A stretch of DNA of 62,775 bases from NCBI GenBank assembly GCA_009779925.1, contig WRAZ01000010.1, forward strand, positions 1 to 62,775, read 5' to 3'. This document shows, one piece after another, positions 3,595 through 12,140 of the stretch. The number at the start of each line of letters is the position of its first letter. The first letter of the stretch is position 1. The DNA is from Chitinivibrionia bacterium (GTDB lineage Bacteria > Fibrobacterota > Chitinivibrionia > Chitinivibrionales > Chitinivibrionaceae). The position numbers were made by a program, and so were the translations under genes. The notes beneath the pieces are model-generated. The model was given only the letters and a program-made list of their open reading frames with translations. It searched no databases and was not told the DNA's origin.

Positions 3595-4524
3595 TCACTT
3601 TGACTGTTGTAAAAGATACATTATTATAGCCTTGTGAGCGTGAAGCCGATTTTCCGCTTCTTCAAAAGCAATGGAACGCTCGCCGTCCAAAACGCTGTCT
3701 ATAACCTCTTCGCCTCTGTGAGCAGGCAAACAATGCGAAAATAAAGCGTCGGGTTTTGCTTTTTTCATTAAATCTTCGTTTACCTGATACGGCATAAATA
3801 TTTCTTTTCTCGACTGCGCTTCGTTTTCTTTTCCCATACTCGCCCAAACGTCCGTATAGACAACATCCACGTCCTTTAGCCCTTCGTCTATGTCGTTTGT
3901 TATGGTTATTAAACTTCCCGTATGTGTGGCTATTTTTCTGCCTTCCGCGGCAATTTCCGCATTCAGTTCAAAGCCTTTCGGACAAATAAGCGTAAAATCG
4001 TAGCCCATTTTTGTGCAGTAATGCAAGTGCGAAGCACAAACGTTATTTCCGTCGCCGACAAACGCCACTTTTATCTTTTTGTCGCCGAATTTTTCTTTGA
4101 GCGCAACTCCGAAAGCGATTGATTGGCAAGGGTGAAATTTATCCGTAAGCGCGTTTATTACGGGAATATTCAAATGTCCCGCAAATTCGCGGAGCGTATC
4201 GTCGCTAAAAGTGCGAACAACCAAAAGATGTACCCAACGCTCAAGATTTTTGGCGACGTCGTAAACCGACTCTCTATCGCCCAATCTTCCGTTTGCAGAA
4301 GGCATATCAAGCGCGTTGCCGCCCAATTCGTAAATGCAAGTCTGAAATGTTATTTTTGTTCTCAGAGACGGTTTATCAAAAACCAAAACAGCGGTTTTGC
4401 CACGCATTTCGTCGCGCATTAATTTTCCGTGCGCTCTTTCTTTCTTCACTTCGAGCGACAAATCAACAATTTTACGAATTTCTTCGCTCGAATATTCCGA
4501 TAATGTTAAAAAATCTCTTTTCAT
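3595..4524 (-). CDS. argF: Ornithine carbamoyltransferase
   Basis: 309 residues, normal length. It makes citrulline from ornithine and carbamoyl phosphate in cytosolic arginine synthesis. The carbamoyl-phosphate loop is KPSLRTK (residues 51-57, with SLRT in place of the common STRT), HPCQ is at 131-134, the ornithine loop is DVWASMG, and HCLPAHRGEE is near 265. The HCLPAHRG form points to plain ornithine as substrate rather than N-acetyl- or N-succinylornithine. It is the first gene of a minus-strand run into the KaiC-like cluster; no other arginine genes are in the window. A TATTATTTTA element lies about 50 nt upstream. Confidence 0.92.
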   Translation of the reverse strand: MKRDFLTLSEYSSEEIRKIVDLSLEVKKERAHGKLMRDEMRGKTAVLVFDKPSLRTKITFQTCIYELGGNALDMPSANGRLGDRESVYDVAKNLERWVHLLVVRTFSDDTLREFAGHLNIPVINALTDKFHPCQSIAFGVALKEKFGDKKIKVAFVGDGNNVCASHLHYCTKMGYDFTLICPKGFELNAEIAAEGRKIATHTGSLITITNDIDEGLKDVDVVYTDVWASMGKENEAQSRKEIFMPYQVNEDLMKKAKPDALFSHCLPAHRGEEVIDSVLDGERSIAFEEAENRLHAHKAIIMYLLQQSK

Positions 4525-4574
4525 AATAACGCATACCTCGCTTTGTTTTGCGATTTTTTAAATATATGAGGCAC

Positions 4575-4584
4575 TAAAATAATA
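4575..4584 (-). promoter_or_regulatory. Promoter-like TATTATTTTA element before argF
   Basis: On the minus strand TATTATTTTAG lies 51 nt upstream of the argF ATG. It is one of a set of matching elements found before many genes in this window. Confidence 0.35.
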
Positions 4585-4671
4585 AATGCGCACCGATTTT
4601 GGGGAATATTTCTTCTTATTTGAATAAAAAATCAGTGAATTTAGAAAAATTGAGTGAAATTTCCAAAACTG

Positions 4672-4697
4672 AACACTGTTCAAAACACTGTTCAAAA
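4672..4697. repeat. Tandem 12-nt direct repeat AACACTGTTCAA
   Basis: AACACTGTTCAAAA occurs at 4672-4685 and again at 4684-4697, a period of 12. The first copy extends to the 11-bp palindrome GAACACTGTTC (4671-4681). It lies in the divergent argF / DUF4143 spacer and could be an operator. Confidence 0.5.
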
Positions 4698-4721
4698 ATA
4701 ATAATTCGCAAAAAAACACAC

Positions 4722-4804
4722 AAACTCCCCACGACTTTATGTTGCATACTACAGAAACTCCCCACGACTTTTGCAAACAAAACACAAAAACTCCCCACGA
4801 CTTT
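4722..4804. repeat. Three 17-bp repeats at exact 33-bp period
   Basis: AAACTCCCCACGACTTT is present without mismatch at 4722-4738, 4755-4771 and 4788-4804, separated by two different 16-nt spacers. The array ends about 10 nt before a palindromic promoter-like element and 40 nt before the ATG of the DUF4143 ATPase. The repeat is not itself a strong palindrome and is shorter than CRISPR repeats, and no cas gene is near. Possible roles are a multi-site operator or a structured leader. The remainder of 4525-4843 is AT-rich with no gene seen. Confidence 0.8.
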
Positions 4805-4813
4805 GTGTAAATA

Positions 4814-4828
4814 TAGTATATTATACTA
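4814..4828 (+). promoter_or_regulatory. Palindromic promoter-like element before the DUF4143 ATPase
   Basis: TAGTATATTATACTA is a perfect inverted repeat with a one-base centre. It sits just upstream of the ribosome site AGGAGGG and 30 nt before the ATG at 4844. It overlaps an ATAGTAT core like that seen before other genes, so it may be both the -10 region and an operator. Confidence 0.4.
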
Positions 4829-4843
4829 AAAAAAGGAGGGCTT

Positions 4844-6151
4844 ATGTATAGAAATATGATAGAAAACTTGCTTAATTGGAAAAACAAAGCCGACAAAAAG
4901 CCGTTAATACTGAAAGGCGCAAGGCAAGTCGGTAAAACATTTTTGATGAAACAGTTCGGTGAGCGGCATTATAAAAGCACGTTTTATGTGAATTTTGAAA
5001 ACAATTTTGCCATAAAACAACTGTTTGCAAACGACATTTCGCCCGAAAAAATAATTCGCGGACTTGAAATACATTTCGGGCAAAAAATAGACAGTCAAAA
5101 TTCCTTGATTATCTTTGATGAAATTCAGGAAGAGCCGAAAGCGGTTAGTTCGCTTAAATATTTTAACGAGGACGCGCCGCAATACGACATAATTTGCGCA
5201 GGCTCATTGCTTGGCGTTGCGCTTCATAAAGGAACTTCTTTTCCTGTCGGCAAAGTGGAATTTCTGAACTTATTCCCTATGTCTTTTGAAGAATTTTTGC
5301 TTGCAATCGGCAAAGAAAATTTGGTGAACTTATATAAGGAAAAGGAATACGACCTTATTAACGCGTTCAAAAACGAGTATATTTCATTGCTTAAAACTTA
5401 TTATTTTGTCGGCGGAATGCCTGAAGTCGTCGCAAGTTTTGCCGTTGAGCAGGACTTGGAAAAATGCAGAAATCTACAAAATAACATCCTTGCGGCATAC
5501 GAACAGGATTTTTCAAAACACGCGCCGAACGAAATTGTTCCTAAAATTCGGATGCTCTACAATAATATCCCCGTTCAACTTGCCAAAGAACACAAAAAAT
5601 TTGTTTATAGCCATATAAAAGAGGGAGCGAGAGCAAAAGAATTTGAAATGGCAATGATGTGGCTTATTGATTGCGGGCTTATTCACAAAGTTGACAATGT
5701 AAGCACGGTTCGCATTCCGCTTAAAAGTTATGCCGACCCAAAAAACTTTAAACTGTTTTTGCTCGACGTCGGACTTTTGTCTTGTATGAGCGGCTTGCTT
5801 CCTCAGATAATTTTGGAGCAAAACAAATTTTTTGTAGAATTTAAAGGAGCGATAACAGAACAGTTTGTATTGCAGGAAATGAAGACTTTCAACGATTTTG
5901 AGATTTTTTATTGGTCTAACAGCAACGGAAGCGCGGAAGTCGATTTTTTAATTTCCAATAAAAACAATCCTATACCCATCGAAGTAAAGGCGGAAACTAA
6001 TTTGCAGGCAAAATCATTATCTGTTTTCAGGGATAAGTTTGCGCCCGATTTGCTTATGAGAATATCCATGAGCGATTACAGAAAAGACGGAAATTTACTT
6101 AATTTGCCGCTTTATTTGATAGAAAATTTGAAATCGGAGATTGGCAAATAG
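4844..6151 (+). CDS. AAA ATPase with DUF4143 C-terminal domain
   Basis: 435 residues, typical for the AAA_14 plus DUF4143 family of anaerobe genomes. Walker A GARQVGKT is at residues 25-32 and Walker B LIIFDEIQ at 88-95. The C-terminal part carries EVDFLI followed by IPIEVKAE, a D...ExK pattern like restriction-type nuclease folds. Family members are scattered, often strain-variable, and of unknown function; roles in defence or toxin-like behaviour have been suggested. An AGGAGGG site precedes the ATG. The upstream spacer carries three 33-bp-spaced repeats, and the gene is followed by a FliS-like gene with its own promoter-like motif. Confidence 0.8.
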   Translation: MYRNMIENLLNWKNKADKKPLILKGARQVGKTFLMKQFGERHYKSTFYVNFENNFAIKQLFANDISPEKIIRGLEIHFGQKIDSQNSLIIFDEIQEEPKAVSSLKYFNEDAPQYDIICAGSLLGVALHKGTSFPVGKVEFLNLFPMSFEEFLLAIGKENLVNLYKEKEYDLINAFKNEYISLLKTYYFVGGMPEVVASFAVEQDLEKCRNLQNNILAAYEQDFSKHAPNEIVPKIRMLYNNIPVQLAKEHKKFVYSHIKEGARAKEFEMAMMWLIDCGLIHKVDNVSTVRIPLKSYADPKNFKLFLLDVGLLSCMSGLLPQIILEQNKFFVEFKGAITEQFVLQEMKTFNDFEIFYWSNSNGSAEVDFLISNKNNPIPIEVKAETNLQAKSLSVFRDKFAPDLLMRISMSDYRKDGNLLNLPLYLIENLKSEIGK

Positions 6152-6158
6152 TATTTTC
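6149..6158 (+). promoter_or_regulatory. Promoter-like TAGTATTTTC element before the FliS-like gene
   Basis: TAGTATTTTC overlaps the TAG stop of the DUF4143 gene and lies 42 nt before the ATG at 6200. It belongs to the recurring ATAGTATTTT set. Confidence 0.35.
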
Positions 6159-6199
6159 CCTCTAAATTTACTAAAAAGTTTGGTGGGAGCAAACCATAA

Positions 6200-6559
6200 A
6201 TGCGGGTAGATGCGGAAACGGTTTCGGAATACTATAAGCAAATGCAAATTGAAACTTTGCCTCAGTATAATCGTGTCGCGTTTCTGCACGAAACTATGTA
6301 TAATATGGTACGACAGGCAATTTTAGGCGAAAAAGAAGACGTGCGAAAACGTCTCGATACCGTCCAAAACATACTTGTTCAACTTATGGCGGTCGTGAAA
6401 AAAGACGATGACGACGAAATCGCCGAAGGATTGCTTTTGCTTTACGACTATATATATGTAAAATTGGAAAGCAACGACGTTGTCGCAATGAACGAAGCTC
6501 TTCAGGTGCTGTCGGTGCTTCACGAAACTTTTGATAAACTTATGAAGAAAAGAGTGTAA
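6200..6559 (+). CDS. FliS-like helical protein
   Basis: 119 residues, all-helical. The pattern matches flagellar export chaperone FliS: an N-terminal YYKQMQIETL segment, then LHETMYNMVRQAIL, a middle helix RLDTVQNILVQLMAVV, EIAEGLLLLYDYIYVKL, and a last helix ALQVLSVLHETFDKLM. FliS binds the C-terminus of flagellin before export. No flagellin or other flagellar gene is in the window. It lies 2 nt before the helicase start, so the two are co-transcribed. Either flagellar genes lie elsewhere or the FliS fold has been reused for another client. The family call comes from pattern, not alignment. Confidence 0.55.
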   Translation: MRVDAETVSEYYKQMQIETLPQYNRVAFLHETMYNMVRQAILGEKEDVRKRLDTVQNILVQLMAVVKKDDDDEIAEGLLLLYDYIYVKLESNDVVAMNEALQVLSVLHETFDKLMKKRV

Positions 6560-10282: not shown

Positions 10283-11356
10283 TTATTTCTGCATTTCTTT
10301 AATTTTGTCGATTAGCGCTTTCATTTCGCCGTCGGTGCCGATTGTAATTCTCAGCCAATCGCTGATTTTCGGTTTATTCCAAAAACGCACTAAAATACCG
10401 TTTGCTTTAAGTTTTTTGTACAATTCTTCGGCTGAAATTCCTGCTGAAATAAATTTTGTCGGACGAGCAAAAACAAAGTTCGCCGACGACTCTAAAATAT
10501 CAAAGCCGAGTTCTTTGAGTTGAGCCACCGCCCAATTTCGAGTGCCTATAACTTTTTTGCAACAATTTTCAAAATATTCGCTGTCTTTTACTGCGGCAAC
10601 GGCTATTTTCAGCGCCAAACGGTCAATCGTGTAAGAATTAAACGAATTTTTTATTACGTTAAGCGAAGAAATAAGTTCCGCGTTTCCGATAGCAAACCCC
10701 ACCCGCGCGCCTGCAAGCGAACGACTTTTTGAAAGAGTGTGAACAACCAGAAGATTGTCGTATTTTTTCGTAAGTTCAATACTGCTCTCCCCTCCGAAAT
10801 CGATATACGCCTCGTCGCAAAGGATAAGCGTGTCGGGGAATTTTTGCAATATTTCTTCGATTTGCGCCATTTTTACGGCAATTCCAGTAGGCGCATTCGG
10901 ATTGCAGATTACAATTCCGCCTGCGTTTTTCGGAAAGTTTTCAAAGTCGATAGTCCAGTCTTCTTTGAGTGGCACAATCTGCTTTTTTATGCCGAAAATG
11001 TCGCACCAAACGGGGTAAAACGAATATGTTATATCGGGAAAAACAAGCGGTTTGTCGCCTGTAAAAAACGCCATAAACGCCATAGCGATTATTTCGTCCG
11101 AGGAGTTTCCGCAGAAAATATTTTCGGTTTTAACGCCGTAAAATTCGCCGATTGCTTCCCGCAGTTCGCTTACGTCGGGGTCGGGGTAAAGTTTCAGCGT
11201 GGAATAATCGAAACTATCAATCGCTTCTTTCACTTTCGGCGACGGTGAATACGGGTTTTCGTTTGTATTCAATTTTATGTATTTCATATCTTTGGGCTGT
11301 TCGCCTGCAACATACGGCACCAGCCCGTCAAGCATTTTTCCGTTAAATCGGCTCAT
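10283..11356 (-). CDS. hisC: Histidinol-phosphate aminotransferase
   Basis: 357 residues, the standard length for this PLP fold-type I enzyme of histidine synthesis, which converts imidazole-acetol phosphate to histidinol phosphate. LNTNENPY is near the N-terminus, CDEAYIDF carries the PLP-ring aspartate, and SKSRSLAGARVG holds the Schiff-base lysine and phosphate-binding arginine. Its start overlaps the stop of vapC by 4 nt, so it may be read from the vapBC promoter. No other his genes are near. Aromatic aminotransferase activity is a family alternative. Confidence 0.87.
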   Translation of the reverse strand: MSRFNGKMLDGLVPYVAGEQPKDMKYIKLNTNENPYSPSPKVKEAIDSFDYSTLKLYPDPDVSELREAIGEFYGVKTENIFCGNSSDEIIAMAFMAFFTGDKPLVFPDITYSFYPVWCDIFGIKKQIVPLKEDWTIDFENFPKNAGGIVICNPNAPTGIAVKMAQIEEILQKFPDTLILCDEAYIDFGGESSIELTKKYDNLLVVHTLSKSRSLAGARVGFAIGNAELISSLNVIKNSFNSYTIDRLALKIAVAAVKDSEYFENCCKKVIGTRNWAVAQLKELGFDILESSANFVFARPTKFISAGISAEELYKKLKANGILVRFWNKPKISDWLRITIGTDGEMKALIDKIKEMQK

Positions 11357-11772
11357 TTGTTCTCCTTCCAGTCTTCCAATTCTAACCCGCGTACACGCTC
11401 AAAATCTTTTGTATTGTTCGTGACAAGAACAGCGCCATTCGACATAGCGTGAGCGGCGATAAGTATATCAAAATCTTCTATCAAACACCCTCTTTTCTGC
11501 AAATCTGCACGTATTATTCCGTATTGTTCCGCTGCATTATTATCAAACGGCAATATTTCCAATGCACACAAAAAATCGTCCAACGCTGAACGATTTTTTT
11601 CGCTACTTTCACTAAGTTCAACGCCGTGCAAAAGTTCCGCCAAAACCAACGAAGATATTGCAATACCTTCTTGACTTCTTATTCTGTCAAAAATGTGTCG
11701 ATACATACTATTGTTTTTTCGTGCGCCACGAATAGCAAAAACGCAGGTGTTTGTGTCAAGCATATATTTCAA
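11353..11772 (-). CDS. vapC: VapC-type PIN-domain toxin ribonuclease
   Basis: 139 residues. It opens MKYMLDTNTCVFAIRG with the first PIN acidic residue, has a central LAELLHGVELSE carrying the conserved Glu, and ends with EDFDILIAAHAMSNGAVLVTNNTKDF, which holds the last PIN acids. PIN toxins cut RNA (initiator tRNA or rRNA in studied cases) when the antitoxin is lost. Its start overlaps vapB by 4 nt and its stop overlaps hisC by 4 nt. All catalytic acids appear intact, so it is likely functional. Confidence 0.88.
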   Translation of the reverse strand: MKYMLDTNTCVFAIRGARKNNSMYRHIFDRIRSQEGIAISSLVLAELLHGVELSESSEKNRSALDDFLCALEILPFDNNAAEQYGIIRADLQKRGCLIEDFDILIAAHAMSNGAVLVTNNTKDFERVRGLELEDWKENK

Positions 11773-12005
11773 AAGACAATCTCTCTGGTTCTGTTAATGT
11801 GTTCTGCTCTGCCGTCTTTCATAAAATCTTCGGAAAATCCTTTTGCGCCTCTTTCAAAAATTTCCAACATTTTTGATTTTGGGAAAAGATATACCGTGCT
11901 TCCGATTTTTTTTATGCAGACCTCGTCTTCGTCAAATCTATATTCTTTCGGAATTCTAACCGCCTGACTTCTCCCCGTCTTGAATACTTTTGCCGTTGCT
12001 ATCAT
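11769..12005 (-). CDS. vapB: VapB-type AbrB/SpoVT antitoxin
   Basis: 78 residues from the ATG at 12005, chosen for the AAAGGAGG site just upstream; a longer frame to 12059 lacks one. The N-terminus MIATAKVFKTGRSQAVRIPKEYRF is the swapped-hairpin DNA-binding fold of VapB. The C-terminal half, with acidic and aromatic residues, would wrap VapC. Expected autoregulation would act on the spacer to trpB2, where TAGTG/CACTA (12104-12119) and TTCCGGGAA (12072-12080) form small inverted repeats. Confidence 0.85.
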   Translation of the reverse strand: MIATAKVFKTGRSQAVRIPKEYRFDEDEVCIKKIGSTVYLFPKSKMLEIFERGAKGFSEDFMKDGRAEHINRTREIVF

Positions 12006-12140
12006 ATTTTCCTCCTTTTTCTGAAATTCTCTTCGGATACATACTGTGGTACATATCAAATATAATAAATGTTCCGGGAAATTGTCAAGGAAGATATGAA
12101 ATGTAGTGAAAAAACACTAAATATTCCATTACACCTCAAA

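Follow-up and report, generated by a model that had tools for sequence, protein, structure and literature searches.

What is the function of three identical, exactly phased repeats that stand directly before the gene of a DUF4143 ATPase? The repeats lie in a stretch of 62,775 nucleotides (contig WRAZ01000010.1 of the Chitinivibrionia bacterium assembly GCA_009779925.1), referred to here as the window, in which AAACTCCCCACGACTTT is found at positions 4722-4738, 4755-4771 and 4788-4804 with zero mismatches and with a period of 33 bp in both steps, a distance of about three helical turns. A preliminary description of the sequence had reported the three identical repeats and their two unrelated 16-nt spacers (4739-4754 and 4772-4787), and all of its coordinates match; it had also proposed selection on both the repeat and its phasing, and had offered a multi-site operator, a leader RNA or a small repeat-spacer array as explanations. 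We find that the layout is general among genes of this family while the 17-mer is private to the gene in the window. Our favored explanation, which we consider probable, is that the array is a private cis operator and that the ATPase, by binding its own three sites on the same helical face over its promoter, represses itself.

A triple repeat at the promoter of a DUF4143 ATPase gene

The array is intergenic, between the divergent argF (3595-4524, minus strand) and the DUF4143 gene (4844-6151, plus strand). A search of the window allowing up to three mismatches returned 4 matches to the 17-mer against 0.22 expected. The genome-wide search that had been recommended found that, in the whole 2.5-Mb genome, the only exact copies are the three of the array, and that a single site elsewhere, with two mismatches, lies on another contig upstream of a gatB-like gene. 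When the minus strand is read, the true repeat unit is longer, AAAGTCGTGGGGAGTTTnTGTg, and fits the motif of the family; the three putative operator copies then read AAAGTCGTGGGGAGTTTGTGTG, reaching approximately to 4717, AAAGTCGTGGGGAGTTTCTGTAG, to 4750, and AAAGTCGTGGGGAGTTTTTGTG, to 4783. Judged from the sequence relative to the -10 hexamers, the third copy covers the expected -35 region. The probable -10 region (4812-4827, plus strand) offers TATAGT at 4812-4817 or TATACT at 4822-4827, both overlapped by the palindrome AGTATATTATACT (4815-4827), and a consensus scan of this region gave no strict sigma-70 site. Upstream of genes, TATAGTAT is about twice as frequent as its complement (19 versus 10). 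A Shine-Dalgarno sequence, GGAGG, follows at 4835-4839 (plus strand) and then the ATG.

It had further been pointed out that the complement of the array reads as a repeated KSWGV peptide. Three KSWGV peptides with an 11-residue period do appear in the translated complement, in an open reading frame of 112 aa with a TTG start (4558-4896, minus strand), but this frame is almost certainly no gene. A coding function was rejected for the arrays, since those with a 32-bp period break the frame and some are inverted.

Several features of the surroundings were also recorded. Between argF and the array, at 4672-4695, is a perfect tandem 12-bp duplication, AACACTGTTCAA, with the palindrome TGAACACTGTTCA inside it, which may serve argF or the ATPase as an operator. 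The contig is of chromosomal type, and the DUF4143 gene sits between argF and fliS. The argF-kaiC neighborhood (window 3595-6559 compared with L374-L379) is kept in six relatives, and because neither the DUF4143 gene nor fliS stands beside argF in these six, we place the DUF4143 gene at a synteny break. Further along the window, a PIN-domain toxin and a MazE-like antitoxin form a pair at 11353-12059 on the minus strand.

The encoded protein is a candidate antiviral ATPase-nuclease

The gene encodes 435 aa with Pfam matches to DUF4143 (3.6e-35) and AAA_14 (6e-29), both above cut-off, and the PADLOC model PDLC04786 (PDC-S01) matches residues 1-431 of the 435 (4.1e-179), as expected of a full-length family member. 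An AlphaFold2 model with a mean pLDDT of 91.2 divides the protein into an AAA core (~1-165), a helical lid (~148-226), a winged helix (~232-306) and a PDDEXK-like domain (~331-422), the last with E-x-D...E-x-K residues that are conserved in an alignment. A sequence search of the PDB with the ATPase gave no match; among solved structures, the Pyrococcus ATPase PABY2304 and the ORC/Cdc6 AAA+ DNA-binding ATPases come closest in fold, at a weak global similarity (TM 0.26-0.44). In its passages on PDC-S01, one publication counts 29,494 instances in bacteria and 9,986 in archaea (~39,000 genes in total) and ranks the family fourth by frequency among the defense systems and candidates of prokaryotes; it was nominated as a defense candidate by guilt by embedding, and most PDCs still await validation (PMC12988326). 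The same passages describe its ATPase-PDDEXK composition and its prevalence without an upstream array (PMC12988326). We treat the gene as that of a putative antiviral ATPase-nuclease, with a presumed link to phage defense. One PDC-S01 gene with a 33-bp array (L384), on the Glaesserella parasuis plasmid NZ_CP071488.1, directly adjoins a type III restriction-modification system.

The layout recurs upstream of homologs across phyla

In the upstream region of each homolog, the highest-scoring three-copy repeat was sought over all periods between 20 and 60 and compared with order-1 Markov shuffles, at a significance cut-off of 0.01, which is also the limit to which the shuffles resolve probabilities; start codons were assigned by rule, and the homologs are not mutually independent. 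The main subfamily was represented by 175 homologs from many phyla; 107 had a significant three-copy array, and in 103 of these the period was 32 or 33 bp. In the phylum of the window, 60 of 97 homologs were significant (57 of the 60 with a period of 32 or 33), and a separate cross-phylum scan of Bacillota, Bacteroidota, Spirochaetota, Verrucomicrobiota, Elusimicrobiota, Chloroflexota, Pseudomonadota, Lentisphaerota, others and one Methanobacteriota archaeon gave 47 of 78, with 46 of the 47 at 32 or 33. When no significance filter was applied, the best three-copy period was 32 or 33 in 129 of the 175 genes, where ~5% is expected, and even among non-significant genes the best two-copy lag was still 32 or 33 in 40 of 68. 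A clear array was absent in ~17-25% of homologs, many of them in Bacillota. The proposed connection with the DUF4143 ATPase family is thus real, and the layout precedes most relatives across bacteria; copies of the gene on plasmids, on phage-labeled sequences and on viral contigs also have arrays. Among passages on DUF4143 or PDC-S01 in open-access journal articles, no earlier description of arrays before PDC-S01 genes was found.

Of the 104 arrays that were aligned, 87 have three copies, 16 have four and one has five, and the period is 32 bp in roughly one in three homologous arrays. The distance from the end of the array to the start codon has a median of 30 bp and is 0-12 bp in a quarter of cases; arrays often extend as far as the start codon or lie over the -35/-10 region. 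The copies are always upstream of the gene and near the promoter, and extra copies of the word, as we call the repeat sequence of an array, also occur upstream only (104 loci).

The genome of the window contains 12 DUF4143 genes, 11 of them full-length, and seven of the full-length genes besides that of the window have an upstream direct repeat, each with its own sequence (that of L006 is weak). Throughout 858 kb of this genome, about a third of it (681 predicted genes), intergenic three-copy arrays at 32-33 bp were present only before DUF4143 genes, the seeming exception preceding a frame-broken DUF4143 remnant; one 27-bp repeat and several microsatellite repeats that also emerged from the genome scan are unrelated to the arrays. 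When the same test was applied to 329 upstream regions of the genome, the only cases at 32 or 33 were DUF4143 regions or their divergent neighbor. On contig C1 of this genome (L065), from 157352-157434 onward, a three-copy array at 33 bp, TTGCGAAAAGTTGTGGT, precedes a degenerate DUF4143 pseudogene starting MLKRKMTDKLLE; the word of this array is matched by that of L128, which belongs to a different taxonomic family. In PDC-S27, the sister ATPase-PDDEXK family, sampled in the same phylum, none of 28 loci had the 32/33-bp array; 5 of the 28 (L238, L239, L240, L249 and L261) had three copies of a repeat spaced at 52-57 bp, some five turns of the helix.

Each gene has a private word

Alignment of the 104 arrays revealed a hypervariable part of ~9 nt followed by a semi-constant A-tract-TGT end, AAAAATGT(G/A); 15 of the 104 (~14%), the array of the window among them, fit better in reverse orientation to the gene. 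Outside its own locus a word is absent or almost absent, and words differ between paralogs in one genome. A search for the 17-mer upstream of other DUF4143 genes, which had been suggested as a check, was accordingly bound to fail, the word being private to its gene and the layout alone common. Similarity of the variable part was 0.42 in the background, 0.53 at 70-80% protein identity and 0.73 above 80%, and words are therefore alike only above ~70-80% protein identity. For example, three genes from three genomes whose proteins are 75-77% identical (L013, L057 and L149) have a common word, CCCTGACTTTTT, and their surrounding DNA does not align; in one orthologous group, column conservation was 0.89 in the repeats versus 0.75 in the spacers. 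The proposal of selection on both repeat and phasing is supported. Two arrays of the same genome never exceeded a word similarity of 0.65. However, words within genomes are no more different than those between genomes (similarity 0.435 versus 0.418), and selection for orthogonality is thus without support. Covariation of protein and repeat columns, sliding-window partial correlations and domain regressions gave a weak hint at the winged helix and placed the specificity residues nowhere reliably.

Spacing follows the protein subfamily

The distance between copies depends on the subfamily of the protein, being 22-23, 32-33 or ~40 bp in PDC-S01 and 52-57 bp in PDC-S27. The PDC-S01 subfamilies at 22, 23 or 40 bp comprise L012, L326 and L328; L349, L351 and L353; and L015, L286, L292 and L302. 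On the protein tree the spacing classes require 4 changes compared with 11-12 after shuffling, and even 32 versus 33 alone requires 19 compared with 26-36. Agreement with the tree is by itself no proof of a cognate binder, as array DNA and gene are inherited together. Inside the genome of the window, spacing also varies with the subfamily (32-33 bp, 22 bp at L012 and 40 bp at L015); because spacing tracks subfamily within one genome and the words are gene-specific, the encoded protein is best explained as the reader. The combination of a different word for each gene with the same layout suggests that each protein reads a private control switch.

A proposed autoregulatory operator and its alternatives

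From the privacy of the words, the position of the arrays and their spacing, we infer an autoregulated operator, and the multi-site operator that had been offered among the explanations is supported as a predicted reading. The AAA_14-wHTH-PDDEXK protein would recognize its repeat, probably through the winged helix, and three protomers or dimers would line up along the same side of the helix across the -35 region; such binding would cause the gene to repress itself. Rapid diversification of the recognition word would provide each member of a multicopy, mobile candidate-defense family with a switch of its own. Binding of the array may activate rather than repress, but we favor repression because arrays lie at widely varying distances from the start codon and frequently cover the promoter or extend to the start codon itself.

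The main rival is that the array is indeed the binding site of the cognate protein and serves mainly for something other than gene control, as a parking, licensing or self-marking site at which the nuclease would assemble and stay inactive (or primed) until displaced by phage or plasmid DNA. The evidence on binding is the same as for an operator, and the PDDEXK-like domain with its conserved E-x-D...E-x-K residues, the fold resembling ORC/Cdc6, a kind that assembles on repeated sites, and the candidate-defense status of the family, one plasmid member of which adjoins a type III restriction-modification system, would all suit such a site. Nonetheless, the position of the arrays, always upstream and close to the promoter, fits gene regulation, and a parking site would not require it; we regard this alternative as rather unlikely. 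That a host or global regulator binds the arrays instead is improbable: the semi-constant end AAAAATGT common to most arrays speaks for it, but words differ among the paralogs of one genome and are nearly absent from the rest of that genome, and spacing there depends on the protein subfamily (22, 32, 33 and 40 bp).

Regular repeats with unrelated spacers do recall a miniature array giving rise to small RNAs, or a leader RNA, as had been proposed, but the arrays usually have three copies (87 of 104), their repeats are gene-specific, and 15 of 104 run opposite to the gene. In addition, folding of the array gave a z of -0.78, indicating no stable fold, an Rfam search had no match, and the array in the window lies upstream of the likely -10; with arrays at the start codon or over the promoter, many cannot be a transcribed leader. 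Six neighboring proteins that were scanned contained no cas domains. Taken together, these data make an RNA-based function very improbable. We give equally little credence to the ends of a transposon, with the AAA+ and PDDEXK modules as a Tn7-like machine. The genes are multicopy, plasmid-borne and patchy, and the argF-kaiC neighborhood of relatives lacks the gene; against this, copies of the word occur downstream of the gene at none of 104 loci and, for the word of the window, nowhere else in the genome, and the gene, a single unit, has no recognizable recombinase.

Implications for the PDC-S01 family

For each gene, the array points letter by letter to a likely DNA target of the PDC-S01 protein, which makes binding directly testable. 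The gene-array pairs are a rare natural data set in which words and readers diverge together at a fixed spacing, and phased triplets can aid annotation by locating promoters, correcting start codons and exposing PDC-S01 pseudogenes. As a tentative and rather doubtful extension, we speculate that the proteins of PDC-S01, among the most abundant families of candidate defense ATPases, are self-addressed nucleases: each gene would carry a hypervariable three-site address that its product alone reads, at a spacing set by protein geometry, rapid divergence of address and reader would keep many paralogs independent in one cell, and the address would restrain the nuclease or mark the gene as self.

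Comparison with known systems

Iteron arrays are direct repeats of plasmid replicons that are bound by Rep, whose rep promoters are autorepressed. The arrays described here are similar in that helix-phased direct repeats (22-23, 32-33 and ~40 bp) directly precede the gene whose product is presumed to bind them, are specific to the element and overlap the promoter. In contrast to iterons, they lack features of a replication initiator or origin, precede single chromosomal genes usually in exactly three copies, and belong to an AAA_14-PDDEXK ATPase of which several non-identical systems coexist per genome. Identity with an iteron-Rep system was rejected, the protein being AAA_14-DUF4143 rather than Rep and the contig being of chromosomal type with argF and fliS as neighbors. 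ORC/Cdc6 proteins on origin recognition boxes are likewise winged-helix AAA+ ATPases that bind repeated DNA sites, and they are among the best fold neighbors; however, sequence kinship is without support, a PDDEXK domain is added here, and the sites lie at the protein's own promoter rather than at an origin. STAND regulators of the MalT type also combine an NTPase with a DNA-binding domain, act on repeated boxes and include a distant fold match (8bob), but whereas MalT switches on other operons by means of a single box that they share, the words here are private and are found in cis only.
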